Notes under the pieces: generated by a model
Told to the model about the DNA's origin: nothing
What the model saw: the letters and a program-made list of their open reading frames with translations, nothing else
Database searches by the model: none
NCBI GenBank assembly: GCA_016223205.1
Contig: JACRPM010000007.1
Location: 62,001 to 126,000, forward strand
DNA from: Candidatus Saganbacteria bacterium
GTDB lineage: Bacteria > Margulisbacteria > WOR-1 > XYC2-FULL-46-14 > WPAF01
Direction of reading: 5' to 3'
Length of the DNA stretch: 64,000 nucleotides
Part shown: positions 13,032 through 37,375 of the stretch, piece by piece
Layout: each line of letters opens with the position of its first letter
Numbering within the stretch: position 1 is the stretch's first letter
Made by a program: the position numbers and the translations under genes

Positions 13032-13769
13032 ATGGACGACCTGCGGGCAATAATTTTGGCGGCGGGGAAGGGCGTGCGCATGAGATCCGACCTTCCCAAG
13101 GTCTTTCATAATGCTCTGGGCAAACCCCTCCTGGCTTATGTTATCGAAACGGTCCAGAAGCTTGGCGTCCAAAAGATCTATGTCGTAGTGGGCCATAAAA
13201 AAGAGGTCATCACCGATCATTTCAAGGATTCAGGCGTGGAATTTATGGAACAAAAAGAACAATTGGGAACCGGCCACGCGGTGATGCAGGTTGCGCCCCG
13301 CCTTAAGGGATTTTACGGCGAGGTTTTGGTGCTGGCGGGGGATGTGCCGCTCCTAAAAGTCGGGACGCTTAAAGGATTGATCGAATTTCATCGCCGGAAT
13401 AAAGCCGCCGCGACCGATCTGACCGCCAACCTCCCCGATGCCGCAAGCTACGGACGCATTATCCGCGATAAAGCCGGCCAGATCATTCGAATTGTAGAGA
13501 AAAAGGACGCCTCACCGGAGGATTTGAAGATTACAGAGATAAATACCGGCACATTTTGCTTCAATTCTCCGGCGCTATTTGAAGCGCTTTCCGAGGTCAA
13601 ATCCGAGAACGCGCAGAAAGAATATTATTTAACCGATACCATCGAGATCTTAAGGGAAAAAGGCCTGCCGGTTTTTGCTTTTTTGGCTTCCGACTGGCGC
13701 GAAACCCTGGGAGTCAATACCCCGGATGAGCTTAAACAGATCGAAGACCTCCTGAAATCCCGCCCCTAA
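13032..13769 (+). CDS. GlmU-like UDP-N-acetylglucosamine pyrophosphorylase, nucleotidyltransferase domain only
   Basis: 245 aa. Rossmann-like sugar-1-phosphate nucleotidyltransferase: signature LRAIILAAGKGVRMRSDLPKV (residues 4-24), EQLGTGHAV, VLAGDVPLL (metal Asp) and the substrate segment SYGRIIRDKAG...IVEKKDA...EINTGTF. It matches the N-terminal half of GlmU. The C-terminal left-handed beta-helix that acetylates GlcN-1-P is missing, and the gene ends cleanly rather than by frameshift. If the acetyltransferase step exists in this organism it must be a separate gene. The 3' end of the gene carries the -35 of the next promoter. Confidence 0.85.
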   Translation: MDDLRAIILAAGKGVRMRSDLPKVFHNALGKPLLAYVIETVQKLGVQKIYVVVGHKKEVITDHFKDSGVEFMEQKEQLGTGHAVMQVAPRLKGFYGEVLVLAGDVPLLKVGTLKGLIEFHRRNKAAATDLTANLPDAASYGRIIRDKAGQIIRIVEKKDASPEDLKITEINTGTFCFNSPALFEALSEVKSENAQKEYYLTDTIEILREKGLPVFAFLASDWRETLGVNTPDELKQIEDLLKSRP

Positions 13770-13780
13770 ATCGACGATAT
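13753..13780 (+). promoter_or_regulatory. Sigma-28-like promoter 1 (for the gene at 13790)
   Basis: TGAAATCC (13753-13760), 12 nt, GACGATAT (13773-13780). The weakest of ten sites in this window with the same 28-bp layout. It overlaps the end of the GlmU-like gene and leaves 9 nt before ATG 13790. Confidence 0.6.
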
Positions 13781-13789
13781 ATATCCAGG

Positions 13790-14392
13790 ATGATAGATTC
13801 ACCGACCGCTTTTTTTACCGTCGGCAAGTCGCTACGCATGGCGACCTTGTCGTGGCACGGCTTTAAGATCCGGCTCCGCACTTACCAGCTCAAAGGCGAA
13901 ACCCTAAGAAAGATCGGCATCAATCCCGATTATTGTCCGAAAGGGGTGGAGATCGGTCTGACCACCCCGGCTTATTTTAGAACTATCCAGCAGATCATGG
14001 GGATCGGGAATAACCGGTTGGGAGGCATCTACCATCCCCGACTGGAAAAAGTTCTGGTCCCGGAGAATATCAGCCAAATTAAACTTTGCCATGAGGTGCT
14101 CCATGCGGCATTTGACGCCCTTCCCCTTTCAGCGCGGGAAGCTTTTTCCCATCTGGTGAACGAGAGCCAAAAGCGTACGCCCGAATCCAGGTTTTTTAAG
14201 GGTGTTGCACAACGCACCAATGGCGATCGTCTCTTTTCTACCGAGGTCTTCGCTTTCGCCGGCACCAAAGTGATCTTTGAGAAGATGGGGAGAGGAGAGG
14301 TAGAACACGATCTGGGAGAGGTTCCCCCGGAACTTAAGGGCTATTTTGAAAGATCGGTAGTGGATCCCCGCCTGCTGCCAGCCGCCGCCTGA
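13790..14392 (+). CDS. Putative zincin-type metalloprotein, unknown family
   Basis: 200 aa, no signal peptide. Residues 101-105 read HEVLH within KLCHEVLHAAFDALP, which fits the HExxH zinc-peptidase motif with hydrophobic flanks. A Glu (about 152, in STEVFAFAGT) lies 47 residues on and could be the third ligand of a gluzincin-like site. The protein ends in a short alanine-rich tail. It has its own sigma-28-like promoter and starts a row of genes with such promoters. I do not recognise the family; protease activity is inferred from the motif alone, and the cytoplasmic location from the lack of an export signal. Confidence 0.6.
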   Translation: MIDSPTAFFTVGKSLRMATLSWHGFKIRLRTYQLKGETLRKIGINPDYCPKGVEIGLTTPAYFRTIQQIMGIGNNRLGGIYHPRLEKVLVPENISQIKLCHEVLHAAFDALPLSAREAFSHLVNESQKRTPESRFFKGVAQRTNGDRLFSTEVFAFAGTKVIFEKMGRGEVEHDLGEVPPELKGYFERSVVDPRLLPAAA

Positions 14393-14400
14393 AAATCACC

Positions 14401-14428
14401 TGAAATTATTTTCTTTCCACACCGATAT
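14401..14428 (+). promoter_or_regulatory. Sigma-28-like promoter 2 (for the gene at 14492)
   Basis: TGAAATTA (14401-14408), 12 nt, ACCGATAT (14421-14428). It has the same layout as the other nine sites. Unlike most of its neighbours it leaves a 63-nt leader, which contains a perfect inverted repeat. Confidence 0.75.
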
Positions 14429-14438
14429 CATGTGTTAG

Positions 14439-14460
14439 CCATGCACCATACGGTGCATGG
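14439..14460 (+). repeat. Perfect 9-bp inverted repeat in a leader
   Basis: CCATGCACC, 4-nt spacer ATAC, GGTGCATGG, placed 11 nt after the -10 box and about 30 nt before ATG 14492. No T tract follows, so it is not an intrinsic terminator. It could be a 5' stabilising hairpin in the mRNA or a palindromic operator. Confidence 0.7.
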
Positions 14461-14491
14461 TTAGCCAGTATATCAATAGAAAGGAAAATTC

Positions 14492-16300
14492 ATGGCATTT
14501 TTAGAAAGAGCCCGCAGTGTCGTTCCCCACTTAAGATATGAAGGTCCTCAAGCTTGTATCGGTCCCCGAGTAACCCAGGAGATAATCGCCGGCATCGACC
14601 GCCGGCAAACACCGCGGCAGATAGCCGAAAGATTGACAGCGATCGAAGGGGTGGGTGCTAAGGTAGAAGAAATAGAAGACCTGCTTATAAAGCACCAGGT
14701 CCTCTCCGACATTGTATCGGTAGCACGTTTAAATGAGATCGTATCCGCCGCCGCCCATAAGACCGCCTCGATCCAGAACGTGCTCAACCTCCTGCGGGGC
14801 GTGCAGACCGCTTTCGATGTCGATCGGGTGATCGCCCGGGAAGGAGGCATCAATACTTTAGGATTTTCCCGAGTGGTAGTTTGTGAGGTGGTTTCCGATG
14901 ATAAAATGGTTCCCATCAAGCAATGGACCAAAAAGGACGGGAAGATCGAGGAAGGTCCCGCTCCAACCGGCGAATCCTTGTCCGGAGACCATTTAATCTC
15001 AATCCCCGGCAACGGCAATGTTTACCTATTTGATCTCCGGGATACCGATCGTCCCATCTATAAAGAAGATATGGAACTATTGGAAAGCTTGATAAAGGCG
15101 GGAGTTGAGACCAAGCACCGCATCAAGTCCGAACGCCGGGTAAGGAACGAGAATATCTCCCATCGGACGCGCGAACTCGTTTCTCGCCAGGCCAACGACA
15201 TCCCCGACCTGATGAAGGTACTCTTGATTTCGGTTGGTTTCAATTTTCACGTGAATATAGCCGCTATATTTATGCGGGTTCCCCGCACCAATGAATATAA
15301 GGGAATCTTTGGCCTGGGCTCGCTTACCGAGGAAGAGCATCATCAGGCACTGGATAATCTGGCCGGGGTCAGGACCGAAGAAGATGTATTGGCGGTGGTG
15401 AAGTCCCAACGGAAAGTTGATTCGGTTTTTAATCAGCTGATCAGCAAGCTGAAATGGGAGGGGGAACTTAAAGAAGCGGTGGTGGTACGGGACGGCAGGT
15501 TCTATGATTCCGCAGGAAAAGAATTCGAAACCCCGCCTGCGGTTGCTGAATATTTATTGGGCATTGCGGAACTTCCACCTAAGGCAAAGGACTTTGTCGT
15601 TCTGCCGGTAAAGACCAGTAAGACCACCTATGGATTTTTGTTTCTGGCCAATCCCTGGACCGGGCGGGACATCGATCTCGAGGGTATCAGCGCCTTGAGC
15701 CGGGATTTTATAGATCTTCTGCGGGTTATGCGCCGACAAAGCGACCCGCCGGCCTCCCCCGGAGGATTGTTGCCGGTTAACCGCGACCATTTAATCGGTA
15801 TCCTACGAAGGGCTTTCAAGGGGGTTTCGGATAATGCCGAGGCGGCAAAAGAATTATTAGCCATCATCAGACCGGAAGACCGTGAAGTGGTAAATGAAGA
15901 AGATCTAAAAGAACTAGTTGAGACCTGGCGCGAGTGGCTGGGCATGCCCGAGGGCTTGATCAGGTTGGAGATAGTTGCCGGATTGGAGCCGCTAATGGAT
16001 AAGGAATGGATCGGCGCGGTGCTCGGGGCCGGCGTGATCGAGGCCCTGCAGGCCATGAAGGTCGGTTTTAATTCCGATCGGACCGGACTTTGTTTTAGCC
16101 CCCAGGATTGGGTCTCAATAAAGCTGGAAGGAAATACTATAATATTTGAAGTTTTAGAAGAAAAAACAGGGGAAGGGATGGGGATCGAAATGCTGAAGGC
16201 GCTGGATACCGAGCTCCGTAAGCAAGGAGTAGGAGGGATCAGGGTCTGGGCCGAGGGTAACACGCTCCGGGTGCGTCTGCAGGACTTCCAAAAAAAGTGA
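14492..16300 (+). CDS. Unknown 602-aa protein, possibly GAF plus degenerate kinase fold
   Basis: No signal peptide or membrane helix. Residues about 30-75 look like a small helical domain. About 90-210 could be a GAF-like sensor (TLGFSRVVVCEVVSDDKMVPIK, then SLIKAGVETKHRIKSERRV). A second similar segment follows at about 290-430. The last 60 residues resemble a histidine-kinase ATPase end, with GEGMGIEMLKALDTELRKQG and VGGIRVWAEGNTLRVRLQDF standing where G2 and the final strands would be, but no H, N or G1 box is evident. If related, it is catalytically dead. SD AAAGGAAA precedes the ATG. The stop codon TGA forms the first three bases of the next promoter's -35. Confidence 0.7.
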   Translation: MAFLERARSVVPHLRYEGPQACIGPRVTQEIIAGIDRRQTPRQIAERLTAIEGVGAKVEEIEDLLIKHQVLSDIVSVARLNEIVSAAAHKTASIQNVLNLLRGVQTAFDVDRVIAREGGINTLGFSRVVVCEVVSDDKMVPIKQWTKKDGKIEEGPAPTGESLSGDHLISIPGNGNVYLFDLRDTDRPIYKEDMELLESLIKAGVETKHRIKSERRVRNENISHRTRELVSRQANDIPDLMKVLLISVGFNFHVNIAAIFMRVPRTNEYKGIFGLGSLTEEEHHQALDNLAGVRTEEDVLAVVKSQRKVDSVFNQLISKLKWEGELKEAVVVRDGRFYDSAGKEFETPPAVAEYLLGIAELPPKAKDFVVLPVKTSKTTYGFLFLANPWTGRDIDLEGISALSRDFIDLLRVMRRQSDPPASPGGLLPVNRDHLIGILRRAFKGVSDNAEAAKELLAIIRPEDREVVNEEDLKELVETWREWLGMPEGLIRLEIVAGLEPLMDKEWIGAVLGAGVIEALQAMKVGFNSDRTGLCFSPQDWVSIKLEGNTIIFEVLEEKTGEGMGIEMLKALDTELRKQGVGGIRVWAEGNTLRVRLQDFQKK

Positions 16301-16325
16301 AATTTTAGTTAAGTGGAGCCGATAA
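16298..16325 (+). promoter_or_regulatory. Sigma-28-like promoter 3 (for the gene at 16342)
   Basis: TGAAATTT (16298-16305), 12 nt, GCCGATAA (16318-16325). The -10 is identical to the classical FliA -10 octamer. The TGA of the -35 is also the stop codon of the preceding gene. Confidence 0.85.
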
Positions 16326-16341
16326 CCAAACGGGAGTTTAT

Positions 16342-16818
16342 ATGCTTGAAAATTTTCATCCGATAAGATTTTTTACAAGGACAATTCGGTATAATGCATC
16401 TTATCGTGTTTTTCGTGGAATTAAGGAACCGCGCCTTGATTTGGAGAGGAAAGGGATTACCTATACCTGCTCGGTCGGATATGTCCTGCGCCGCCTGCCG
16501 ACAGACGACTTCAATGCTCTTAATAAATTTTTAAAGTTAATTGCTACAACGGTAGGGTGTTTTAGAGTAATAGATATTCCCGATGTTGCCGATATTATGG
16601 GCATACCCAAAGAAGATATACCCGGGATAAAATGGGCTGAATTTATGGTTTCTGACTCACAGCACCCCTTAAGCAAGGGGGATATTTTAGGCCATTTCCT
16701 GCAACACTGCTATGATCCTGAAACGCGAACTTTGGCCCTCTCCAAGACCAACGCGTTTAAAGAACATATGAAAACCCATCTGCTGCCCAGTTCACAAGTG
16801 CCCCTTAGAATGAACTGA
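16342..16818 (+). CDS. Unknown 158-aa protein
   Basis: Starts at ATG 16342 with GGGAG about 7 nt upstream. No signal peptide, no membrane helix, four scattered cysteines, mixed alpha/beta composition (TYTCSVGYVLRRLPTDDFNAL, then FLKLIATTVGCFRVIDIPDV). I recognise no domain. It lies between two sigma-28-like promoters: one drives it, and the other begins at its stop codon (TGA = first bases of the next -35). Presumed cytoplasmic and co-regulated with its neighbours. Confidence 0.7.
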   Translation: MLENFHPIRFFTRTIRYNASYRVFRGIKEPRLDLERKGITYTCSVGYVLRRLPTDDFNALNKFLKLIATTVGCFRVIDIPDVADIMGIPKEDIPGIKWAEFMVSDSQHPLSKGDILGHFLQHCYDPETRTLALSKTNAFKEHMKTHLLPSSQVPLRMN

Positions 16819-16843
16819 AATTTTCCACAAACCGCCCCGATAA
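16816..16843 (+). promoter_or_regulatory. Sigma-28-like promoter 4 (for the gene at 16856)
   Basis: TGAAATTT (16816-16823), 12 nt, CCCGATAA (16836-16843). ATG 16856 is 12 nt past the -10 without a Shine-Dalgarno, which suggests a leaderless transcript. Confidence 0.83.
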
Positions 16844-16855
16844 TATTCTGATATT

Positions 16856-18196
16856 ATGGAAGCTAAGCCAGTAACAAGTTTGGGGTCATCCGCCGTAGGG
16901 GTTTTTCGCAAACCCTCGACTATCAGAGCGGATTTAAGGGCCATGAATTTTGTTCTCGCAAAAGCAAATGTATTTGATACTGGCAGAACGAAGTATCTAG
17001 CTATTCTCGAGCGGATATCCCCGCAAAAATATACTGCAATAATGGAAAAGCTTCAAAAAATTGGCGAAACCCATCCACGTTTTGTACAATTACATCTTCC
17101 TGCGAAGGAAATATTGGAAAGAACTCCTTTTGAGGATGTCCCGCCGGAAGAGCTGGACGTGGTAAAGGACCAAGTTCTGGATTGGAGAGGAATCGAAAAT
17201 ATTGTTAATGAGGCCAAAAGACGAATTCAGAAAAGAACCATTTATGCAAACGATGGGATGGAAATCACTCCGGATCCGGTAATGCTTGGCGAGCTGGAAG
17301 CACTTAACCGTCGCCAGATTGGGATCGCCGCGGTTGAACCGCCGTCGGCAGCGGCAGAGGTTATCGAGGAGCTTAGCCGGGAAGCGCAGACCCCACCCGA
17401 TATCGAACAGCAATTTTATGACCTGGTTCAGCGCAAAAGCCCCCTGCTTAGGTTCGGCCGCACTATTACCGTCGGCATTATCAGGAATCCGTCTTCCGGA
17501 CTTACCCGTGATGAGCAGGATCTGGTCATTGACGCGCTCAATTTTACCTGCAGGGATCGCCAGGACATGTACACGCACTTGATCCCGGTGAAGGCGGTGG
17601 TGGTGCCGTTTTATAAGGGCAAACCCATGGCTTTTGGGGCCGGCAATGAGATCTCTTTTCAGAACAACGGTACGGCGGAACGCTTAATATATCTGGTGGC
17701 CACCCAGGTTCGGAGCGGGTTCTACGGCCAAGGTTTGCAAACTGTAGTGAACGGCATCTATTGCCTGCAAAGGGAAGGCGCCCCCCTGGCCATGATGCGC
17801 AGCCGGAGCGTCGGCACGATCATCGGGTTCCGGCAGCATTTTTCAAAAGTCAGCTTTCGTCTGGATACGCCTGCCAAAGCGCGCCGGGCTGGGGAATTCT
17901 CGCGCTTCATGGGCTGCGAATGCGATGAGAACGGGATTGTTAGGAACGCCTATGAGACGCCGCCCCACGATCCCGAACGCGATCAGCAAATCCTCGAAGC
18001 CCTGAAAAGAAATCATCCTAAAAGGTATAACTGGGTGATGACCGCGCTCGAGGGCCTGGGACCGCTCGATGCCCGTATTTTCCAGGGCAGATTGACCCAT
18101 CGAAAAAAGCTGCGATTTAAATTCGATATTGATGTGCTCTTTCGTCTCAGGAACCGGGGATTAGAGAGGAGGGAGAGGGTGCAATCCCCTGGTTAA
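16856..18196 (+). CDS. Unknown 446-aa protein with GNAT-like C-terminal half
   Basis: The N-terminal ~200 residues are helical and unrecognised. From about 215 the pattern resembles an N-acetyltransferase (GNAT) fold: AVVVPFYKGKPMAFGAGNEI (strand pair), LIYLVATQVRSGFYGQGLQT (the RxGxGxG-like acetyl-CoA loop, here RSGFYGQGL) and a late strand with AMMRSRSVGTIIGF. This is a fold-level guess; the canonical Q/RxxGxG/A is only approximately kept and the substrate is unknown. The protein ends in an arginine-rich tail. Its last 50 nt overlap the end of the convergent radical SAM gene. Confidence 0.65.
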   Translation: MEAKPVTSLGSSAVGVFRKPSTIRADLRAMNFVLAKANVFDTGRTKYLAILERISPQKYTAIMEKLQKIGETHPRFVQLHLPAKEILERTPFEDVPPEELDVVKDQVLDWRGIENIVNEAKRRIQKRTIYANDGMEITPDPVMLGELEALNRRQIGIAAVEPPSAAAEVIEELSREAQTPPDIEQQFYDLVQRKSPLLRFGRTITVGIIRNPSSGLTRDEQDLVIDALNFTCRDRQDMYTHLIPVKAVVVPFYKGKPMAFGAGNEISFQNNGTAERLIYLVATQVRSGFYGQGLQTVVNGIYCLQREGAPLAMMRSRSVGTIIGFRQHFSKVSFRLDTPAKARRAGEFSRFMGCECDENGIVRNAYETPPHDPERDQQILEALKRNHPKRYNWVMTALEGLGPLDARIFQGRLTHRKKLRFKFDIDVLFRLRNRGLERRERVQSPG

Positions 18197-19925
18197 AGCG
18201 GGCTATCAATTCATTGGTTATCACTGGATCCCCGGTTAGACTGCAATAAAACATTCTTTCAAAAAATTCCCGCGGGGGCATTTGTAGAACCTGGGATATT
18301 AAATAGTGGCTGTGAGAGAATCCCAAAAGTATTCCCAATTCTCCGATTTTTCTTTGCAGATCATTTGTCTCTCCGACATATTTTCCGAATGATTTACCGT
18401 CGATCTTGTAAGGCAGCGGCGGCCAAAGCCGCATAGGCAAAGACAGGATCAACGGATATCTCAATAAATATCTTAACACTTCAGGGCTTTGCATGGTAGG
18501 TTTGGGTTTTCTGTTTAAAAACCTCAAAACTCGATCCAATCTATCAGGATAAGTTATTTCCACACCAATCTCCGCCGCGTGCTCCGAACAATAAGTTCCC
18601 GGAAATAATCCCAGGGCCTGAACCGGAGCGGAGAGTGGGCGGACGTCTTCCAAAAATTGGACAATTAGTTCCGCCTCATTGGCGGGCATGCCTGGATAGG
18701 GATAAATAAAACTGCCGATAGCCGCTATGCCGGCTTGCTTGGCGGCCAGCATGGCCGCCTTGATATCTCCAAGGCCTTCCTTTTTGGCCATTTTTTTTAA
18801 GGTGCCATCGTCGGCGGCTTCTACTCCAAAGAAAATAGCCAATCCGCCCGCCCGTTTTATTCTCTTCATTAAATGACCCAGGTCGGTTTCCGAGGGCCTT
18901 TCATCGCGACCTCTCATGAACAAGACCCAGTTAAATTTCCTCTCTAATCCCCGAGCGGCCAGCGCTTCAGCAATCTCCCCGGCTTGGCGAGGGGAGGTGC
19001 TGCTGCCCACCAGCTCAAAGTGAGTAAGTCCAAACTTATTATTTAGAATGACCATTTCGTCCACGATGTCACCGGCCGGTTTTGAATATCTTTCCCGGCC
19101 GCTTAATAGCGGCTGAGCACAAAAATTACAAAGGAAATGACAACCCCGGGAAGTTTCAATAAAGGCATACCTCATTAATCCTTCGAAATCGGCTTCCTCA
19201 TAAGGTGCGCGAGAGAGGTCGACCCATTCTTTAAGCGGCAATCTTTTCCTGGCGGTGGCCATTATTCTGCCATCTTGGGCCTTAAAAACGACATTAGGAA
19301 CCCTGCTTAGATCATCCAGCTTTCCGGCTTTTAACGAATCGAGGATCTCGGCGATCCCCACCAGGGCCAGCTCACCCTCTCCCAATACCAAAGCGGTAGG
19401 GGCATTGGTTTCCTGGTAGATGGTCCGGGAGAAAAAAGTGGTTTGCGGCCCGCCGAAGATCAAGGGAAGATCAGAAAATTCCCTTCTTAAGCTATTCGCA
19501 ATGGCAATGGCACCCTCTGTGCTGCCTCCCAAAAACAAGGAGAATCCCACCGCATCGAATTTTTCTTCTTTTACACGTCGCGCGATTTCCTTTCCTACTT
19601 CCCCAAAAGTCCTTTTTTCCGTATCTGCCAACTTTCGGGAGATCTTCCGGAGCTGGCTTAGATCCCACAGGAAACGGAGCAGGTGGTGGGGACGGCGACC
19701 TTCTACCACTACCGGCTTAATGCTCCGCTCGTAGATTGCGGCGGCTTCCCCAACCAGAGGAGCGGGGAACATCCGGGGCATCAGCGCGGTTGAGTAATTG
19801 GCGACCACCCCTTCGTGGCCGGCACTCCTTAAGGCCTTCCTCAGCATCAGCAGGCTGGGGCGGGGTACTTTACCCGAAAGGTCGGTGTGCCCAAGTCCGC
19901 CAACTAGCAATATTCTGCTTTTCAT
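18147..19925 (-). CDS. B12-binding-domain radical SAM protein
   Basis: 592 aa. The N-terminal part (about 1-190) resembles a cobalamin-binding Rossmann domain (FDAVGFSLFLGGSTEGAIAI, then LPLIFGGPQTTFF). The radical SAM core begins at the iron-sulfur motif SRGCHFLCNFCAQP (CxxxCxxC, about residue 270) and has EGEL-type and GVEAADDGTLKKM segments. The C-terminal ~150 residues are unknown. Such proteins methylate or rearrange unactivated carbons; the substrate cannot be read from sequence. It is transcribed alone from a sigma-28-like promoter on the minus strand, with only 9 nt between the -10 and ATG. Confidence 0.85.
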   Translation of the reverse strand: MKSRILLVGGLGHTDLSGKVPRPSLLMLRKALRSAGHEGVVANYSTALMPRMFPAPLVGEAAAIYERSIKPVVVEGRRPHHLLRFLWDLSQLRKISRKLADTEKRTFGEVGKEIARRVKEEKFDAVGFSLFLGGSTEGAIAIANSLRREFSDLPLIFGGPQTTFFSRTIYQETNAPTALVLGEGELALVGIAEILDSLKAGKLDDLSRVPNVVFKAQDGRIMATARKRLPLKEWVDLSRAPYEEADFEGLMRYAFIETSRGCHFLCNFCAQPLLSGRERYSKPAGDIVDEMVILNNKFGLTHFELVGSSTSPRQAGEIAEALAARGLERKFNWVLFMRGRDERPSETDLGHLMKRIKRAGGLAIFFGVEAADDGTLKKMAKKEGLGDIKAAMLAAKQAGIAAIGSFIYPYPGMPANEAELIVQFLEDVRPLSAPVQALGLFPGTYCSEHAAEIGVEITYPDRLDRVLRFLNRKPKPTMQSPEVLRYLLRYPLILSLPMRLWPPLPYKIDGKSFGKYVGETNDLQRKIGELGILLGFSHSHYLISQVLQMPPREFFERMFYCSLTGDPVITNELIARFNQGIAPSPSSLIPGS

Positions 19926-19934
19926 GGCATAATA

Positions 19935-19962
19935 TTATCGGGGTCTTCCAATGGGAATTTCA
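19935..19962 (-). promoter_or_regulatory. Sigma-28-like promoter 5 (for the radical SAM gene)
   Basis: Read on the minus strand: TGAAATTC (19955-19962), 12 nt, CCCGATAA (19935-19942). It shows the same layout on the opposite strand, again directly before a gene start (ATG 19925). Confidence 0.82.
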
Positions 19963-19981
19963 TTATAATTAATTAATCTAC

Positions 19982-22513: not shown

Positions 22514-22520
22514 TTGCCCC

Positions 22521-28561: not shown

Positions 28562-28566
28562 CTGCG

Positions 28567-28723: not shown

Positions 28724-28725
28724 TG

Positions 28726-29595: not shown

Positions 29596-29723
29596 CCTCA
29601 CCCCTTCCTTCGCCTTCGGCGAATTCCTTCCCCTCTCCATCTTCGATAGAGAGGGGATATCAATATTAGAAATACCCCTTCTCCACGAAGTGGAGAGGGG
29701 GTGCCCGAAGGGCGGGGGTGAGG
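29596..29723 (+). repeat. GC-rich palindromic element, copy downstream of argB
   Basis: About 128 bp starting at the base after the argB stop. It begins CCTCACCCC and ends GGGGGTGAGG, with hairpins CGCCTTCGGCG, CCCCTCTCCAT...GAGAGGGG and CCCTTCTCCAC/GTGGAGAGGGG, then GCCCGAAGGGC. Same modules as the upstream copy, separated by an AT-rich spacer. A sigma-28-like -35 begins 3 nt after its end. Confidence 0.8.
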
Positions 29724-29725
29724 AC

Positions 29726-29753
29726 GCAAGTTTTCCGCCCCCTCCTCCGATAA
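29726..29753 (+). promoter_or_regulatory. Sigma-28-like promoter 6 (for the gene at 29799)
   Basis: GCAAGTTT (29726-29733), 12 nt, TCCGATAA (29746-29753). It belongs to the GCAAGTTN subgroup found only in the 30-37 kb island. The spacer is C-rich. Confidence 0.82.
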
Positions 29754-29764
29754 TATAGATGAAG

Positions 29765-29792
29765 CTCCAAGATTTGCCTGTCAATTTAGGAG
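29765..29792 (+). promoter_or_regulatory. Leader hairpin with TGCCTGTC loop that covers the Shine-Dalgarno
   Basis: CTCC-A-AGATT (29765-29774), loop TGCCTGTC (29775-29782), AATTT-A-GGAG (29783-29792), with one A-A mismatch and one G-T pair. The 3' arm includes most of the AGGAGG ribosome-binding site of the gene at 29799. The folded RNA should hinder translation. The loop matches those of two later leaders. Confidence 0.65.
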
Positions 29793-29798
29793 GAATGC

Positions 29799-32700
29799 AT
29801 GACAAACGTATCGCCATTGAGCGGAAAAGACGCCTGGGTCAAATACTTCCAATCCCGCGGATTATCCAAAGAACAAGCCCAAACTGCCGTTGATACGGTC
29901 GACCTTTCCGATGGTCTAAGCCAGGAAGAAGCCACAACTTTGGGCCTTGAAGCCGAAGGGACCATTGACCGCTATATTCGCCAGGGATGGGCGGCCGACG
30001 GGGAAGCGGGGATTGAGACCGAAGAGCAAGGGGTCAATGTGGTGGAGGCCGACGAACTCGAGAGGGCCTACGCCGCGATCGCCCGCTATGCCGACGCCCA
30101 CAACCTTTCATACGAACAGGCCCAGCGGATCTATTTTCAAACCGACATTTCTTTTACCCGGCAAAGTTTAAGCGAAGTAAAGGCAGAGCGTGAGGCAACC
30201 CGCGCCGCCTGGGTTTCCGAATACAACGCCAAGAAAGCGGAAAGTCCCGATCTTACTTTTGTGGACTGGGCAAAAGAAAGATTTGGAATAACCGATGAAA
30301 ATGATCCGGTTCTGGCCAACCTTCAAGCTTACGTAACCGCCCATGCCGATGCCACCCCCGAACAGTTGGTCGACTTTATACTGCTCAACGGCTTTGCCGC
30401 GCGTTTAACTGCCGACATCCAGACCGATCCAGCCGAAGGCGATAATCCCGGCTTGGGTCTGTCGCAGGCCGTTACCGGCCGCACTGCTCCGGCGGATTAT
30501 CAAGTCGCCACACTGGAGCCATTTTATCGGAATGCCCCGGCCGCCACGGAAGAGCCGGCAAGTGTTGAGACCGAAACCCAGCAGGCTGAAACTGCACCGC
30601 CGCCGGCTGAAACCACTGCCTCAACCGAAACATCCGGTACAACTGAAGCTTCCGCAACACTTGACGCTCGTAGATATTTCGATTCTTTGGCAGGCCTGCT
30701 AAGAGAACATCCGGGGATGACCCTGCAGGTGGGCTCTTTTAGGTATAGCTGGTATAACGGGCAGGTGGCGGCGGTAGATACTTTTGGGACTATAAAGACC
30801 GGTGAAGAGGTTATTCCGCTTTTGCAAGAATCACTTAGTGTCTTCGAAGGACACTTCACTGACGGCGATGTAACCGGCGCATTGAGCTGGATAAACGGGC
30901 AATATGGCGCTGATGCCCAAGCCCATCTTAATTTATTGCTCACGATCGAAGGCTATATTTCCGGTGGAAGACAGGCTTATGCGGGAGTTGAAGATACCGG
31001 CTATAACGCTGAAGATTACAATCCCGCCAGTCAGGCCAGCCAACCTTCCAATCCCCCCGTAACGCCCAATACTCCCAGCGCTCCCGCAACAGTCGCCCAA
31101 ACGACTACGATGCCGGAACAGATTACTATAGATGCTGGAGAATTATTTAGGCAGGGAGAGGAAGCTTTTGGGCGTGGAGAGTATCAACAGGCCATTGATT
31201 TATATCAAACGGCCTTTGATAACCTTCCAGGAGGAAGGCCATTGATGGAAATGGCCCGCTGTCAGATAGCGCTCGGGAGGGCAGAGGAAGCTCGTGCGAC
31301 ATTGGCAAGGCTGCGCAGTGAATATCCTAACTTCGTCGCCTTTCCCGCTTACGATGAATATGTATCAGGATTAGAAGCTTCACTTTCTCTCCCTTCGGTT
31401 ACTCAAACCGCTCCACAAGAAGCTCGTCTCGATGAACCTCCGCCAACTGCTCCTCCACCGCCACCCTCAACTCCGGCACCGGCCGCTCCTGTGGTTGCCG
31501 AACCGAGCCCTGAAAATCCAGTGGATATCACACAGGATATTGCCGCTCTTCAAGCGCCCGCTGTCCCGATTGTCTCACCGGAACCCGAAATAGTCCCCGA
31601 ACCGGAAATAGCGCCACAACCGTCAGTCGTAGCCGAAGCGCCTGCACCGCCTCCGCCTCCCCCGGCCACCCTTCGCCAAACCGCAGGGGAAAGCTTGGCT
31701 CAATTAATTGCAGCCGGCGATTATAACTTGATCTCTATTACCACGCTCTTGCCCGGCCCAGAAAATTTTTCCTTAAGAGGAGTGTTAACCACTGCCAATA
31801 ACCAATTTAGAAATCTTGGTCAGGGGGATCCCTTAAAAGATCAATTTAAGGCCGAATATATAAGATTATTGTCGGAAATTTCGGCAGTTCTGAAAAGCCC
31901 GGATACGACTGATGACCAAGCCGTCATCGATGCCTTAAACGGCTTGAATAATATCTATTATGCGTTTGATGGCGCCGAAATGGCCGTTGCCAGAGGAGAT
32001 TACAGCAGGGCCATAGCGGCTTATGAAGGGATAGAAAATCCTCCAGCTTTCATTACTGCACGGCTGGAAGCACTGAAAGGATTACGGGACACGGCGGCCG
32101 CGCAACAGACACAATTGGCAGATTTACGCGCGAAAGCCAATGTGGAATATCAAACGCTTTTGACTTACGTTTCTGATAACGGTTTGAACGATCAGGACCT
32201 GACCGGAAACCTGGCTTGGATCGAAGCCGAATATGGTCGGCTGGATTCAACGCAAGATCCGGCGGAGATCCAGAAATTCATTGATTCCCTTCCGGGCATC
32301 AGGACCATGGGAGAACAAGTGATAGCGCGAAGAGAATCCGGCGAGCTGACGGAAGCCACCGTCAGCGCAGGAACCGAATCGGCGCCTCCTGCCGCACGGG
32401 TAAATCTGGGCGATATTCCGACGATTCAGTTAATATCGGCAAATCCACAAGTGCCGGCAGATAGAGTGGAACAAGCACTGCGAGATAAATGGCAAACGAT
32501 CGCTGATAAATTTAACGGAATAGCCGGCGGTATAGCGCGGCGCAACACCTATCAATATGTGATTATTTCGGGGTATATAGAATTCAACCCATCAACCGGC
32601 CGGATCCGTTGGGCCGATGTGGGATTTACCTCGGATTCCGGCACCGTCAGTGATTTTGCAACATTACAGAGGGATGCCAATGGAGATGGAAGGGTGGAAG

Positions 32701-32852
32701 AAGTAGGGATAAATGAAGCAGTGGCAGATCTTGAAAACGACCTGCGGTTTACCGCCGATATGGAATTTACAGCCGACTCACACTATCAAGACGTGGGTGG
32801 AGGTTGGTATCGTTACAATCAAAGGATGAGAGCTACCGCTTCGGCGAATTAA
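29799..32852 (+). CDS. Unknown 1017-aa protein with TPR and proline-rich segments
   Basis: No signal peptide. The N-terminal region (1-215) is helical and includes SRGLSKEQAQTAVDTVDLSDG-LSQEEA, a motif echoed in the 777-aa protein. Residues about 240-295 are Thr/Glu-rich and disordered. A TPR-like pair lies at about 447-530 (LFRQGEEAFGRGEYQQAIDL and ARCQIALGRAEEARATLARL). A proline-rich linker spans about 545-625 (PPPPPSTPAPAAP, PAPPPPPPAT). Another helical part (AMAVARGDYSRAIAAYEGIE-like) follows, then a beta-rich C-terminal domain of about 145 residues with DANGDGRVEEVG, which resembles a calcium loop. Scaffold-like architecture. Function unknown. Confidence 0.8.
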   Translation: MTNVSPLSGKDAWVKYFQSRGLSKEQAQTAVDTVDLSDGLSQEEATTLGLEAEGTIDRYIRQGWAADGEAGIETEEQGVNVVEADELERAYAAIARYADAHNLSYEQAQRIYFQTDISFTRQSLSEVKAEREATRAAWVSEYNAKKAESPDLTFVDWAKERFGITDENDPVLANLQAYVTAHADATPEQLVDFILLNGFAARLTADIQTDPAEGDNPGLGLSQAVTGRTAPADYQVATLEPFYRNAPAATEEPASVETETQQAETAPPPAETTASTETSGTTEASATLDARRYFDSLAGLLREHPGMTLQVGSFRYSWYNGQVAAVDTFGTIKTGEEVIPLLQESLSVFEGHFTDGDVTGALSWINGQYGADAQAHLNLLLTIEGYISGGRQAYAGVEDTGYNAEDYNPASQASQPSNPPVTPNTPSAPATVAQTTTMPEQITIDAGELFRQGEEAFGRGEYQQAIDLYQTAFDNLPGGRPLMEMARCQIALGRAEEARATLARLRSEYPNFVAFPAYDEYVSGLEASLSLPSVTQTAPQEARLDEPPPTAPPPPPSTPAPAAPVVAEPSPENPVDITQDIAALQAPAVPIVSPEPEIVPEPEIAPQPSVVAEAPAPPPPPPATLRQTAGESLAQLIAAGDYNLISITTLLPGPENFSLRGVLTTANNQFRNLGQGDPLKDQFKAEYIRLLSEISAVLKSPDTTDDQAVIDALNGLNNIYYAFDGAEMAVARGDYSRAIAAYEGIENPPAFITARLEALKGLRDTAAAQQTQLADLRAKANVEYQTLLTYVSDNGLNDQDLTGNLAWIEAEYGRLDSTQDPAEIQKFIDSLPGIRTMGEQVIARRESGELTEATVSAGTESAPPAARVNLGDIPTIQLISANPQVPADRVEQALRDKWQTIADKFNGIAGGIARRNTYQYVIISGYIEFNPSTGRIRWADVGFTSDSGTVSDFATLQRDANGDGRVEEVGINEAVADLENDLRFTADMEFTADSHYQDVGGGWYRYNQRMRATASAN

Positions 32853-33712
32853 TTGATGATCAGGACGTGGGTCGATTCGCGGTCTATCCGGTTCACGCCG
32901 GTTTCGGGCCTAAGCCGCTGCCAGTTCTGCATTTCAAGCAATTCCAGGACTATCGCAGATTGCGTAGCAAGCCCATCCGCCGGAAAAAGTTCGATCTCGA
33001 TATAATTGTCAGTTAACCGCCCCGCTAGATATTCGCCGTAATTGGTTCCACCTTCGCACTCCCTGATCCGGCTCGACACAAAATTGTGATGTTTAGCTCC
33101 TCCGTAGATAGCGAACCGGCCTTCGCCTTCCAATAATCTATCTACTGCCGCCCGGCCCGCGCTTTCGGTGTAATTCCAGGATCGCAATTTCAGTTCTATA
33201 CTGTGCTGATAGTTGGAATTATGAATGGTTTCGGCAGCTTGCTCGAGAGTCATCCCTCCTGGGTGCACTCGGATGCCCAGTTCACGCGCTCTGTTCAGTA
33301 TGTTGATCAGATCCTGTTGGTTTATATAGAATTTAAAGGTTTTCCATAGGGTAGGGGTGGTCGTCTCACCGATAACCATAGTTTTATCTTCATAAAAAGC
33401 ATCCAGTTCGGCGATGATGGCGGGATCGTTCAAGATCTGTTCAATTATCAAATCGGTTATTCCTTCATCTTTCAGGACGGGCAAAACCTCTTCGGCAAAA
33501 TAGGCCTTGGCGGTCTTATAACCGGGAGGATCCGAACAGGGGTGGAATTCGCCGAAGGCAATGACCCGGGGGTCGGCATCATCCAGAAGGTCGCGGACTG
33601 CCGCGGCCGTAGAATCGTAATGGACGGGGGTTTCGGAGGGTGGTGTGGTTGCCTGCTTCATGGCCAGCTTCGTGCTATATATATAATAAGGTAGGGTTGC
33701 GGCGATCCTCAT
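32849..33712 (-). CDS. ChaN/EreA/Tiki-like protein, unknown substrate
   Basis: 287 aa. RVIAFGEFHPCSDPPGYKTA (residues about 49-68) has the GE-x-H signature of the erythromycin-esterase/ChaN/Tiki superfamily. The later IYGGAKHHNFVSSRI would supply the second histidine pair. Family members are hydrolases, proteases or haem-binding proteins; the type cannot be chosen here. The first 18 residues are weakly hydrophobic (MRIAATLPYYIYSTKLAM) and not a convincing signal peptide. The 3' end overlaps the 1017-aa gene by 4 nt (convergent). Its promoter lies back to back with that of the gene at 33785, and the ATG is 6 nt after the -10. Confidence 0.6.
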   Translation of the reverse strand: MRIAATLPYYIYSTKLAMKQATTPPSETPVHYDSTAAAVRDLLDDADPRVIAFGEFHPCSDPPGYKTAKAYFAEEVLPVLKDEGITDLIIEQILNDPAIIAELDAFYEDKTMVIGETTTPTLWKTFKFYINQQDLINILNRARELGIRVHPGGMTLEQAAETIHNSNYQHSIELKLRSWNYTESAGRAAVDRLLEGEGRFAIYGGAKHHNFVSSRIRECEGGTNYGEYLAGRLTDNYIEIELFPADGLATQSAIVLELLEMQNWQRLRPETGVNRIDRESTHVLIIN

Positions 33713-33718
33713 GCCTTC

Positions 33719-33746
33719 TTATCGGGGACGTGATCCTGAAATTTCA
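33719..33746 (-). promoter_or_regulatory. Sigma-28-like promoter 7 (for the ChaN/EreA-like gene)
   Basis: Minus strand: TGAAATTT (33739-33746), 12 nt, CCCGATAA (33719-33726). Its -35 is separated from the -35 of promoter 8 on the other strand by a single base. Confidence 0.83.
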
Positions 33747-33747
33747 T

Positions 33748-33775
33748 GCAAGTTGCGCTTCTTTTTAACCGATAT
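33748..33775 (+). promoter_or_regulatory. Sigma-28-like promoter 8 (for genes at 33785 and 34261)
   Basis: GCAAGTTG (33748-33755), 12 nt, ACCGATAT (33768-33775). ATG 33785 is 9 nt past the -10, so the first gene is probably leaderless. Confidence 0.8.
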
Positions 33776-33784
33776 ATATTCTGA

Positions 33785-34222
33785 ATGAGTGACCCGACTA
33801 TACATATAACGCCTGGAAGGGGAGTTGTGGTTTTGCCCCAGCAAGGGGAAAGGCCCAATGTTCGCATAACCCCCAATCCCGATGTGACCCCGGTGGAGAC
33901 CGCCCCCGCCACTGCTCCGCCCGATATTGAAAAGGTAAAAGCAGAAAGCCGGGCTACCATCGACGGCGAGGAAGTCACCGCCAAACAAAGGATCCGAGCC
34001 CTGCAAACCCGGGTCGGCACAGATGAAAGCCCCGAAGCGGCCCTAGAACGCCTGCAGGAAGAAGACCGATTCGAAGGTAAAACCCTGATCCCGGTAGTAT
34101 TTGAGGAAGATGGAGAAGAGGAGATCATTGGATATTTGCCCCTGGAAGAAGCACAGCTTTTTGCCGAATCAGGTCATTCCATCACTATTCACCCCGGTCC
34201 GGGGGTAACAGTATTACAATAG
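33785..34222 (+). CDS. Unknown 145-aa acidic protein with matching ends
   Basis: Starts without leader and lacks a signal peptide. Its first and last segments are versions of one strand-like motif: HITPGRGVVVLPQ at residues 6-18 and TIHPGPGVTVLQ at the C-terminus. Between them are a Pro/Thr/Ala-rich linker (TPVETAPATAPPDIEKV) and an acidic alpha/beta stretch (ESPEAALERLQEEDRFEGK, EEDGEEEIIGYLPLEEAQLF). No known domain recognised. Followed after 38 nt by the 197-aa gene, with which it forms a two-gene operon. Confidence 0.72.
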   Translation: MSDPTIHITPGRGVVVLPQQGERPNVRITPNPDVTPVETAPATAPPDIEKVKAESRATIDGEEVTAKQRIRALQTRVGTDESPEAALERLQEEDRFEGKTLIPVVFEEDGEEEIIGYLPLEEAQLFAESGHSITIHPGPGVTVLQ

Positions 34223-34260
34223 ATTTAGCAACAGATCATTCCCTAAGAGGAGGAGTATAA

Positions 34261-34854
34261 ATGGCCGAAGATAATGTTGTCAGATCCTGTTCCTACCATG
34301 GAAACCCCTGTCCCAAAGCTGCGGTGAACCCCGATCGGGCGGATACCACGCCTGCCTCCGGCACACAAACCCGGCCCGGCTCTTTGATGAGCGCTTCTGA
34401 CGGGCAGATGGTGTGGGGCGGACCGGTGGTCTATCGCGGTATCACTCTGGCCGCAGGATCGTACATCAGTTCCGACGGCTCAACCATAGAACTGGATTGG
34501 CCAACCCAGATCGGAGATGCCTGGTATAGCGGGATCGTCCGGGTATCCGAAGAGGGAGAAGTCCTTTCCGGCATCCTGGCCAGTGAAGCCCGCACCAAGA
34601 ACGGAGACGTTTTACCGGCCGGAACCGAGGTCTGGTATAGCGGGACCGACCTGGCCAAGGTGCGTTCTTCCACCCATAACTTGACCATTCGGGGAGTGTC
34701 CGTCCCAGCCAATACCGATATTGAGCTGGATAACGAGGGCTATGCCCGCCGTTTGGAGTTCCATAGCGCGAGGGGAACCACCTACGACAATCGTTCTTAT
34801 CCTAACTATTATTCGATCATCATCGATCATCAGGGGCACCGAATAGGGCAGTAA
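34261..34854 (+). CDS. Unknown 197-aa beta-rich protein
   Basis: Strong ribosome-binding site AGGAGGAG, 6 nt before the ATG. The N-terminal 45 residues are polar and flexible, with the cysteines CSYHGNPC near the start. The rest consists of short alternating strands with repeated elements (ITLAAGSYISSDGSTIELD, VSVPANTDIELDNEGYARRL; DAWYSGIVRVSEEGEVLSGI, TEVWYSGTDLAK). This looks like a small beta sandwich or beta-solenoid-like domain built from two similar halves. No signal peptide. It follows the 145-aa gene in the same transcript. Function unknown. Confidence 0.72.
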   Translation: MAEDNVVRSCSYHGNPCPKAAVNPDRADTTPASGTQTRPGSLMSASDGQMVWGGPVVYRGITLAAGSYISSDGSTIELDWPTQIGDAWYSGIVRVSEEGEVLSGILASEARTKNGDVLPAGTEVWYSGTDLAKVRSSTHNLTIRGVSVPANTDIELDNEGYARRLEFHSARGTTYDNRSYPNYYSIIIDHQGHRIGQ

Positions 34855-34869
34855 ATAAATATTTTAAAA

Positions 34870-34892
34870 GGGATGCAAGTTTTTTGCATCCC
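34870..34892 (+). repeat. Perfect 9-bp inverted repeat over promoter 9
   Basis: GGGATGCAA, 5-nt spacer, TTGCATCCC. The left arm and spacer contain most of the -35 of promoter 9. No T tract follows, so termination of the upstream operon here is unlikely. It could be an operator. Confidence 0.6.
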
Positions 34893-34902
34893 ATGCCGAT
34901 AT
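34875..34902 (+). promoter_or_regulatory. Sigma-28-like promoter 9 (for the gene at 35006)
   Basis: GCAAGTTT (34875-34882), 12 nt, GCCGATAT (34895-34902). The -10 equals the SigD consensus octamer. A leader of about 95 nt follows. Confidence 0.85.
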
Positions 34903-34912
34903 ATAGATGGAA

Positions 34913-34933
34913 GCCAGATCGCCTGTTTCTGGC
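34913..34933 (+). promoter_or_regulatory. Leader hairpin with TCGCCTGTT loop
   Basis: Stem GCCAGA (34913-34918) with TCTGGC (34928-34933), six perfect pairs. The loop TCGCCTGTT (34919-34927) is identical to the loop of the leader at 37395-37425, though the stems are unrelated in sequence. The loop is also the left arm of the terminator that follows, so the two structures share bases. Confidence 0.7.
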
Positions 34934-34983
34934 AGAAGTCACTAGAGGATTCTTGAGTCCGTCCGTAACAGGCGGGCTTTTTT
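34920..34983 (+). terminator. Intrinsic terminator inside the leader of the 777-aa gene (attenuator)
   Basis: CGCCTGTT (34920-34927) pairs perfectly with AACAGGCG (34967-34974), followed by GGC and six T (34978-34983). The ~39-nt loop contains a further hairpin, GGATT-CTTG-AGTCC. It stands between the promoter and the ribosome-binding site GGAGGAG (34991-34997), so read-through is needed for expression. Confidence 0.6.
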
Positions 34984-35005
34984 GTTTTATGGAGGAGAAT
35001 ATTAA

Positions 35006-37339
35006 ATGGTACAGATAGTCAGCAACCCGGATGGATCACCATCTGTATTACTTTCTGTTCCGCGGACACCCGCTGTTCCGCGGTCAACCGGAGAACAGTC
35101 ACCCCAAATGAGCGTGGATGGCGTAGTATCTACCAACCCCGCCGGTCAAACACCCGATCTTTCTCAACCAGCCGCAATTGGAGAAGATTATCAATTGGGG
35201 ACACCGGCCCTGATCAGTACTCCTCCTATCATTCCTCCTCCTATTGCTCAAGACCAAATTCCCAGCGTATTAAGTGGCGGGGAGCCCCCGAGCGAGGCCG
35301 AAGGCCGAGTCGAGTGGGGACAGGCCTCCCCGCCTTCTTCTTTAAAAGAGGCGCTTAAGACCCTGGGATTTTCCGATTCCCAGATCGCTAAGCTGACCGA
35401 CGAGGAGCTCGAGGACGGCATATCCCTCGAAGAGCTCCGCCGGCTGGACCCCGACAAGACCATCGTCACCGACATGGCCTATAACCTTTTAAGCCGGGGC
35501 GGATTGGGAGTGAATGCCCTGGGTGGAGTGGCGGCCGATGAGGATGGTATTCAGTTGGCTGACGTTAATAGGTTCTTAACCGAAGTTGTAGCTCCTCTGG
35601 TAAGCGGCACCGGCCGGTCCCTTGAAGTTATTGCCCGGTTTCTTAAGGCCAATAAGTTCAGGATTATCTCCCGCCACGCGGCCGCCCGCGCCTTTAGGGA
35701 ATCCACAAAGGAAAAAGAGGGTCTCTGGACCACTACCGACGGCGCCACCACTTTGAGCGTTAAAACCCTCATCGACAAATACGTTAGGGGAGAGCTTAAG
35801 GGATTGGCCGGCAAGGTTTTGGCCAATATCCTAGGTCACGAGATTTCCGAAAGCGACCGCCTGACCGAGGACCAATTGGCCAACTTTTTCCTGACCATGT
35901 ATTTTGTGGCCAAATCGGACTCCCCCGAAAACATCATGTCCGAGGCCAAGGATATCCCGGAACTCGAAGGCGATTCCCCCGCCAAGCTCATCGCCTGGCT
36001 GACCACGGGGGCGGAGAACCCGGTGCAGGCCGCGAGCACCGGCGCCGCCGAACAGAGCCAGCAAAACCCGCAGGGTGATATGCCGGAAGAATTGAGAGAG
36101 GGCTTAAAACTATTGTATGAGTTTAACAATGATCAGATCATGATGGATAACGACAATAAACCGCTGCTTAAGCATTATAACACCAGGGTCGAACAGCGAC
36201 AAGCTTATCAAAAAGCTGCGGAACATTTCTTGAATGTGATGAATAATGACGGCATCTCAACCCTTTATAAGCGGCAAGCCGCAGAATACCTTGCAAATTG
36301 TTATCAGGCCTTGACCCAGATAGCCGGAACCGTAGCCGATCTTAATGAAATCATTGATGCTGCGGAAAATCAGTTAGGAAAAATTGAAAGTATTTTAGGG
36401 GTAGATAAAGTAATTGATCTACGTAATTCCTGGATGCAACAGGCCTCGGCCCTTCCTCAAGATGGCACGAACGAAGGAATCGTTTTTGCTCAAATTAAAG
36501 CTCTGGATGAGATCTATACCAGGCCCAATGCCCCGGCAGGCCTGGTAGTGGTGGCCATTCCCGGCGAGATTCTAAACTTAGCCCTTAAATGTATCGAGCT
36601 TGCCAATCCGGAATATCAGCGTTACGCTTTAACTTTGGCGGAACAACTGCCGGAGCGGTTTATTAGGCAAACCCAAGACGAAAGGGGCCAAGCCCAAACC
36701 CAAGAGATAAGTAAAGAAGAAGTTAAAGATCAGCTGAAATTAACAATAGCCCAAAAGTCCCTACCGTCCACTATATTTAGCGGTTCTGAACTTACCGGCG
36801 AAGCGCTGGCCAGCGAGGCACAGGCATTGCTGGGGATTCTTGGGGAAGTGGTGGGAGTGGGGGCTCCTGATACCGGCCTGCTTTCTTCCGTGATTACGTC
36901 TTTAACCGGTTTAATAGCCCAGACCACCGATCCACAGAAACGGTCAAGCTATGAAAGCCTGCGCGACAACGCTATCCGCATCATGTTCATGATCGCCCAG
37001 ACCTTCATTAAGGCTTCGAAAGACCAGGGAATTGACGCTGAAACCAGAGAAAATTGCAAGGCGGCATACAAAGCCATTGCCCAGCTGATGAAGGATTTGG
37101 GACTTGAAGAAGTTTCACTTCTGCCTGGGGAGCAAGGTGGGGATCCAATTGCCCTGGGTGGCAGGCAAGGGTTGATCAGAGCGTTGGAAAGGGGTCTAAA
37201 TACCAATATATCATCCTCCGAAGCCCAGCGTGAAGTTGCCCATCGGACAACGGAGACACCCTATGAACGGCCGGAAGATAGAGAAAGAGGAGCTTCCCAC
37301 ACCCATCAACCCGACCGCCGAACCAGGCCCTCGCGCTAA
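35006..37339 (+). CDS. Unknown 777-aa helical protein
   Basis: No signal peptide. Residues 1-110 are Pro/Ser/Thr-rich and probably disordered. At about 113-145 is LGFSDSQIAKLTDEELEDGI-SLEELRRLD, which parallels a motif near the start of the 1017-aa protein. The rest is nearly all alpha helix (for example KAAEHFLNVMNNDGISTLYK, RQAAEYLANCYQALTQIAGT, QLPERFIRQTQDERGQAQT) and suggests a repeat scaffold. The last 35 residues are basic and polar. Strong Shine-Dalgarno GGAGGAG. It is preceded by a leader with hairpin and terminator. No recognised domain and no enzymatic motif. Confidence 0.8.
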   Translation: MVQIVSNPDGSPSVLLSVPRTPAVPRSTGEQSPQMSVDGVVSTNPAGQTPDLSQPAAIGEDYQLGTPALISTPPIIPPPIAQDQIPSVLSGGEPPSEAEGRVEWGQASPPSSLKEALKTLGFSDSQIAKLTDEELEDGISLEELRRLDPDKTIVTDMAYNLLSRGGLGVNALGGVAADEDGIQLADVNRFLTEVVAPLVSGTGRSLEVIARFLKANKFRIISRHAAARAFRESTKEKEGLWTTTDGATTLSVKTLIDKYVRGELKGLAGKVLANILGHEISESDRLTEDQLANFFLTMYFVAKSDSPENIMSEAKDIPELEGDSPAKLIAWLTTGAENPVQAASTGAAEQSQQNPQGDMPEELREGLKLLYEFNNDQIMMDNDNKPLLKHYNTRVEQRQAYQKAAEHFLNVMNNDGISTLYKRQAAEYLANCYQALTQIAGTVADLNEIIDAAENQLGKIESILGVDKVIDLRNSWMQQASALPQDGTNEGIVFAQIKALDEIYTRPNAPAGLVVVAIPGEILNLALKCIELANPEYQRYALTLAEQLPERFIRQTQDERGQAQTQEISKEEVKDQLKLTIAQKSLPSTIFSGSELTGEALASEAQALLGILGEVVGVGAPDTGLLSSVITSLTGLIAQTTDPQKRSSYESLRDNAIRIMFMIAQTFIKASKDQGIDAETRENCKAAYKAIAQLMKDLGLEEVSLLPGEQGGDPIALGGRQGLIRALERGLNTNISSSEAQREVAHRTTETPYERPEDRERGASHTHQPDRRTRPSR

Positions 37340-37347
37340 CCTTTAAT

Positions 37348-37375
37348 GCAAGTTTTTGGCCCCTCCTTCCGATAT
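37348..37375 (+). promoter_or_regulatory. Sigma-28-like promoter 10 (for the giant gene)
   Basis: GCAAGTTT (37348-37355), 12 nt, TCCGATAT (37368-37375). It begins 8 nt after the stop of the 777-aa gene and is followed by a ~105-nt leader. Confidence 0.84.

Follow-up and report, generated by a model that had tools for sequence, protein, structure and literature searches.

Sigma-28 (FliA/SigD) is the sigma factor of late flagellar genes, and members of its family such as WhiG of Streptomyces and sigma-28 of Chlamydia also serve outside motility. A FliA site with canonical spacing, exemplified by the Escherichia coli tar promoter, reads TAAAGTTT-N11-GCCGATAA (PMC4183435). Flagellar structures can likewise be kept outside motility, as in Buchnera, where basal bodies are retained and flagellin and motor proteins are lost (PMC8109811), and an origin of type III secretion via forms without motility parts has been proposed (PMC3459982). 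For Candidatus Saganbacteria, a main genome paper mentions neither motility, secretion nor sigma factors (PMC6349859), and we found no paper in the open-access literature describing the promoter and export system reported here. We analyzed a stretch of 64,000 nt from a Candidatus Saganbacteria bacterium (the window; assembly GCA_016223205.1, contig JACRPM010000007.1, positions 62,001 to 126,000), in which an earlier note had listed ten 28-bp two-box sites resembling sigma-28 promoters. These sites belong to two promoter classes, and we consider it likely that two sigma-28-type factors drive the corresponding two regulons, whose products would in part be cargo of a flagellum-type export apparatus without a detectable filament.

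Two discrete promoter classes

Across the whole 1.57-Mb genome, the pattern NNAARTT-N14-CCGATAW gave 37 matches versus 1 for the reversed control, while shortening the spacing by one base to that of canonical sigma-28 promoters left 2 matches versus 2 for the control. Within 401 kb of this genome, TGAAATT (28) and [GA]CAAGTT (7) precede CCGATAW exclusively at spacing 14 and not once at spacings 9–13 or 15–19; as these 401 kb are stretches taken around spacing-14 sites, the count at 14 is inflated and the zeros elsewhere are unaffected. In the same sequence, TGAAATT (28) and GCAAGTT (6) are the only left boxes that recur before N14-CCGATAW, accompanied by a single ACAAGTT; mixed left boxes do not recur, and TAAAGTT was found at no spacing. 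A start codon on the same strand follows 34 of the 35 consensus sites at a distance of 2–194 bp, and the remaining one, at the edge of a contig, is followed by an ATG after about 19 bp. Two off-consensus matches (ACAAATT and AAAAGTT) are both intragenic. The sites are thus not equally frequent inside genes and before them, an outcome that would have refuted the earlier reading of the sites as promoters, and a chance origin was rejected based on the excess over the control and the exclusive spacing. Both classes also carry their own surroundings: the upstream flank of TGAAATT sites is A/T-rich, and [GA]CAAGTT sites run on as CCGATATata.agtgaa. The repeated sites are real promoters of two discrete kinds, and their identity as promoters is well supported.

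Inspection of the window at each of the ten coordinates listed earlier confirmed nine sites as exact TGAAATT or GCAAGTT followed by N14 and CCGATA[AT]. The tenth, at 13753, has the form TGAAATCC-N12-GACGATAT, with the correct spacing and one mismatch in each box. Sites with one mismatch also clearly exceed the control: the TGAAATT pattern with at most one mismatch occurs 48 times in the whole genome compared to 3 times for the control. Of the proposed six-to-four division of left boxes, the four GCAAGTT boxes stood, whereas the group of six consists of five exact TGAAATT boxes and the 13753 variant. At every exact site the right box is NCCGATAW, the GCCGATAA type of sigma-28 promoters, so that its description as a FliA/SigD -10 element was correct. 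The same applies to the spacer, which at 12 nt is one base longer than the 11 nt of sigma-28 promoters such as tar (PMC4183435). The -35 boxes TGAAATTT and GCAAGTTT are each two positions away from TAAAGTTT.

Exact TGAAATT-type promoters are located on the plus strand at 14401–14428, 16298–16325 and 16816–16843, preceding the open reading frames (ORFs) 14492–16300, 16342–16818 and 16856–18196, and on the minus strand at 19935–19962, preceding a radical-SAM ORF (18147–19925), and at 33719–33746, preceding the ORF 32849–33712. The degenerate site (13753–13780, plus strand) precedes the ORF 13790–14392. A further exact TGAAATT-type promoter, absent from the earlier list, lies on the minus strand at 5283–5310, within the 3′ end of dnaG and 16 bp upstream of rpoD (4226–5266, minus strand), whose product, the housekeeping sigma factor, scores above the cut-off of the NCBIfam model RpoD_Cterm. 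The earlier remark that none was noticed before housekeeping genes is thus corrected. All GCAAGTT-type promoters of the window are exact and on the plus strand: 29726–29753 precedes a 1017-aa ORF (29799–32852), 33748–33775 the ORF 33785–34222, 34875–34902 a 777-aa ORF (35006–37339) with a homologue in another genome (G001; G and L numbers are our designations for genomes and loci) that carries the same promoter type, and 37348–37375 a giant ORF of 4217 aa (37487–50140, plus strand) without a Pfam family or a Sec-like N-terminus. Most of the uncharacterized window proteins that we tested had no match in Pfam, NCBIfam or PHROGs. The view that the sites serve uncharacterized genes holds for most targets, but the sites spread beyond this window. 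At 33719–33775, a TGAAATT-type and a GCAAGTT-type promoter stand back to back with 1 bp between them, so that simultaneous occupancy of both may be impossible.

Both box classes are present in all 31 genomes of our class set (Saganbacteria/WOR-1), which we compared to an outgroup set of 26 genomes from the same phylum. Summed over the class genomes, TGAAATT sites number 346 versus 4 for the control and [GA]CAAGTT sites 143 versus 1; in the outgroups the totals are 55 versus 2 and 13 versus 2, respectively. TGAAATT targets that recur include rpoD in four genomes (preceded by the same promoter in G009, G018 and G019), a small zinc-ribbon protein in three and a LacI-type regulator in two. The radical-SAM protein of the window has a 57.5% identical homologue in G019, likewise with a TGAAATT promoter.

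Two FliA-like factors and a flagellum-type export apparatus

Searches with sigma region 2 retrieved two FliA-like factors, one of 235 aa and one of 193 aa that we term SigX, besides the window-encoded RpoD, a 163-aa RpoE-like factor and a divergent 402-aa protein. The latter (L002:1171-2379) is sigma-70-like and weakly similar to RpoD. FliA_WhiG (TIGR02479) is the best match of both FliA-like factors; the 235-aa factor aligns to it along its length, and SigX matches it in regions 2 and 4 with a short linker in between. A structure model of a SigX form showed weak likeness to WhiG and sigma-28 structures. Full-length SigX is encoded in 28 of the 31 class genomes (relatives 60–79% identical) and the 235-aa factor in 30 (65–80%); relatives detected via the SigX protein are metagenome-assembled genomes of Candidatus Saganbacteria, WOR-1 and Margulisiibacteriota. 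Region 4.2 is near-invariant within each factor and different between them (LSESQVSRI versus LSRPKVCR). The expectation that the genome encodes sigma-28 family proteins was thus borne out by two FliA-like genes, but the idea of one dedicated factor with one regulon has to give way to two factors and two promoter types.

The gene for the 235-aa factor lies between flgI and flgB. Over most of the phylum, that for SigX lies right behind flhA and closes the export-gate operon fliP-Q-R-flhB-flhA; in our genome it is relocated a few kb from flhA. We most likely have to assign TGAAATT to SigX, mainly because TGAAATT-type sites sit in the gap between flhA and the SigX gene (exact in G009, G037 and G047, with one mismatch in G010 and with two in G042, G045 and G050); TGAAATT sites and SigX homologues also both reach into the outgroups. 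The probable reader of [GA]CAAGTT is the 235-aa factor, since both are almost limited to the class and a GCAAGTT site heads the operon flgF-G-A-H-I-sigma-flgB-C in our genome. This second assignment is weaker than the first. A search for conserved promoters before this operon in relatives gave nothing consistent. As a whole, the pairing of factors with boxes is moderately supported. Two outgroup flagellin promoters, by comparison, show canonical sigma-28 spacing (TTAAAGAT..ACCGATAA).

Two small genes accompany SigX. A 70-aa protein is encoded immediately before it (L036:1201-1416, L125:1285-2127, L126:1282-2127) and is fused to the SigX N-terminus in G018 and G019; it might be a partner or an anti-sigma factor. 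Between flhA and the 70-aa gene lies the gene for an uncharacterized protein of 80–133 aa (L224:3986-4387, with counterparts in other genomes), which is possibly a chaperone.

A search for FlhA was positive in 30 of the 31 class genomes, whereas flagellin (PF00669) and MotB (PF13677) were each detected in none of them; the same searches succeeded in control genomes and in the outgroups, of which 8 were positive for flagellin and 17 for MotB. Our genome and G011 (one contig) share the gene order flgF-G-A-H-I-(sigma)-flgB-C-(fliE)-fliF-G-(H)-I-J, and both of these as well as G016 carry fliM-N-O-P-(Q-R)-flhB-flhA in order. Pfam models detect FliF, a short FliG, FliM, FliN and rod/hook-type proteins, while flgA/H/I, fliI/J, fliP and flhB were recognized from sequence and gene order. 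FliG measures 159–165 aa, and in our own copy the N-terminal and middle domains alone were detected; ring genes of the flagellar FlgH/FlgI type are retained. As rod, ring and export genes persist while flagellin and MotB are undetected, the simplest reading is that the apparatus would be a protein export machine without stator or filament rather than a motor. The suggestion that the regulon is unrelated to motility agrees with this, yet the tie to the flagellum is close, since the genes for the two factors are part of flagellar-type export operons. Eight outgroup genomes (G032, G034, G037, G039, G042, G045, G047 and G050) contain flagellin together with at least two flhA genes each, which implies that two flagellar-type systems can coexist in one cell. 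In G034, one flhA adjoins a 258-aa FliA and the other adjoins SigX.

Regulon products and a candidate leader RNA

Sec-like N-termini are rare among the products of both promoter classes. Taking products whose start is bounded by the promoter, we counted 0/48 for TGAAATT and 1/24 for [GA]CAAGTT compared to 68/323 for neighboring genes (pooled p=8e-6), and in a second set of four other genomes 2/37 and 1/17, respectively, compared to 11/62. N-termini of TGAAATT products are weakly hydrophobic and rich in arginine, which makes up 10.4% of residues 2–41 versus 5.3% (p=7.5e-11), an excess that peaks at the N-terminus and is small further in; many of these products are encoded by single genes. [GA]CAAGTT products carry an N-terminus rich in Ser/Thr/Pro and are often very large, with 12/29 exceeding 700 aa versus 17/335, and 9/17 versus 4/62 in the second set. 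Because the longest-ORF start rule is simple and the Sec test crude, these results are supporting and not decisive, and export of the products via the apparatus is predicted from indirect signs. Among the individual products, two of TGAAATT type (L047:12367-13860 and L054:3184-5100) have in common a GAFSFTxAACDC segment and acidic stretches and are devoid of a Sec-like N-terminus. A 2489-aa product with an ACAAGTT-type promoter (L057:2625-10094) resembles, by eye, a degenerate GGDEF domain in its N-terminal part.

The leaders of the two classes differ as well. A loop motif YGCCUGU occurs early in 13 of 61 [GA]CAAGTT leaders versus 0 of 102 TGAAATT leaders. The arms flanking the loop, unrelated in sequence, are paired in 70 of 78 cells across the 13 hairpins, a value reached by 0 of 100,000 arm permutations. 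The arms were selected for pairing, which favors the observed value, but at background YGCCTGT sites pairing is far less frequent. Most of these hairpins are followed by a loop-complementary ACAGGC and usually a U run. In the window, hairpins with the loop UCGCCUGUU are found on the plus strand at 34913–34983 and 37394–37468, followed in terminator-like stems by AACAGGC and ACAGG, respectively, and in both cases by a U run, and a weaker one with the loop UGCCUGUC at 29765–29792 (plus strand) without a downstream ACAGGC. Further examples are at L243, L248, L307, L320, L321, L323, L324 and L199, and the hairpin often precedes large genes. Searches against Rfam yielded no credible family in the window or in seven leader loci and gave no support for a known riboswitch. 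The covarying hairpin is a candidate new leader RNA, and it may possibly act as an attenuator or antiterminator.

Competing explanations and relation to known systems

In the explanation that we favor, two factors of the FliA/sigma-28 lineage would share the NCCGATAW -10 box and the 12-nt spacer and differ in their -35 recognition. Each would be produced together with the apparatus and would switch on its own regulon, some products of which may leave through the flagellar gate like late flagellar proteins. Predicted cargo comprises large non-Sec products under [GA]CAAGTT promoters and products with Arg-rich N-termini, many from single genes, under TGAAATT promoters; the regulons would also include some cytoplasmic regulators such as RpoD. 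Several observations weigh against this explanation. Both factors fall short of the FliA_WhiG cut-off of 189.6 bits (141 bits for the 235-aa factor and 72.4 for SigX), we detected no good site ahead of SigX in our own genome, and neither G010 nor G011 showed a [GA]CAAGTT site upstream of the operon for the 235-aa factor. As both factors co-occur across the class, co-occurrence cannot fully separate them. An outgroup family (f10) has SigX homologues and no TGAAATT sites, and the arginine excess replicated more weakly in four other genomes (8.7% versus 6.1%, p=0.01). Finally, the TGAAATT targets rpoD, LacI-type regulator and RNA recognition motif (RRM) protein are unlikely export cargo. These targets and the zinc-ribbon protein, all but the RRM protein being conserved in other genomes, would fit a general regulatory or stress regulon under TGAAATT that is unlinked to export, with the flagellar apparatus as a separate relic. 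We regard this as fairly unlikely, since SigX, under a TGAAATT-type promoter of its own, belongs to the export-gate operon in most of the phylum, every class genome tested has kept its apparatus intact, which is not what one expects of a relic, and the products avoid Sec-like N-termini.

A single sigma factor might instead read both -35 types, the two boxes being strong and weak, or early and late, variants in one regulon. The identical -10 box and spacing, the AA-TT core kept in both boxes and the binding of E. coli FliA at a TGAAATT-type site (otsA, PMC4183435) are compatible with this, but mixed boxes are missing, the classes differ in upstream and downstream sequence, in leader RNA and in the kinds of product, and two factors with distinct, near-invariant regions 4.2 exist throughout the class, which renders a single reader improbable. 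Still less probable is that the 163-aa RpoE-like extracytoplasmic function (ECF) factor present in the genome reads TGAAATT. The distance of 16 between TGAAAT and CGATA is indeed ECF-like, the SigW promoter being TGAAAC-N16-CGTA. However, the -10 box is that of sigma-28, the autoregulatory site precedes SigX, and we saw no TGAAATT-type site ahead of the ECF gene. Operators can be two-box motifs with fixed spacing as well, but that the sites bind a DNA-binding regulator in place of a sigma factor is very improbable and was rejected, as the boxes are asymmetric and all point at a gene, the spacing is invariant and the -10-like CCGATA box has start codons shortly downstream.

Returning to two factors with two regulons, a bolder form of this explanation is conceivable, to which we give somewhat less than even credence: a class-wide, non-rotating and filament-less secretion machine would have arisen from the flagellum, the two sigma-28-type factors and their boxes would in effect list its cargo, the giant proteins would be under a leader attenuator, and the whole would represent an intermediate between flagellum and injectisome. 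If true, a simple two-box search would predict what a secretion machine puts out in uncultured bacteria related to Cyanobacteria, and paired sigma-28-type factors would be found to share -10 box and spacer with different -35 recognition. The conversion of a flagellum into a secretion system with rod and rings kept, a step still open in the origin proposed for type III secretion (PMC3459982), would also become testable.

The sigma-28 (FliA/SigD) late-gene regulon has in common with the present system the NCCGATAW -10 box, the AA-TT core of the -35 box and FliA-like genes in flagellar operons. It differs in that the promoters described here have one additional spacer base, two -35 types and two factors, and control mostly uncharacterized genes without flagellin or stator targets. 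The WhiG and Chlamydia sigma-28 regulons likewise use the family outside motility, and the SigX model weakly matches WhiG structures, but here two factors are involved, both encoded in a flagellum-type export system. The filament-less basal bodies of Buchnera similarly retain basal body and export genes without flagellin and motor proteins (PMC8109811), whereas we describe a whole class with many-gene sigma-28-type regulons and not a reduced endosymbiont. The intermediate non-flagellar type III secretion system of Myxococcales is also an export machine without motility-specific parts (PMC3459982), while the Saganbacteria apparatus keeps rod and FlgH/FlgI ring genes and is flagellum-like. Regarding regulatory logic, the HrpL/hrp-box regulon of Pseudomonas syringae equally combines an alternative sigma factor, scattered genes, fixed two-box promoters and a tie to type III secretion (PMC3879358); HrpL, however, is an ECF factor, whereas the factors reported here are FliA-like and the export of their regulon products is a prediction.

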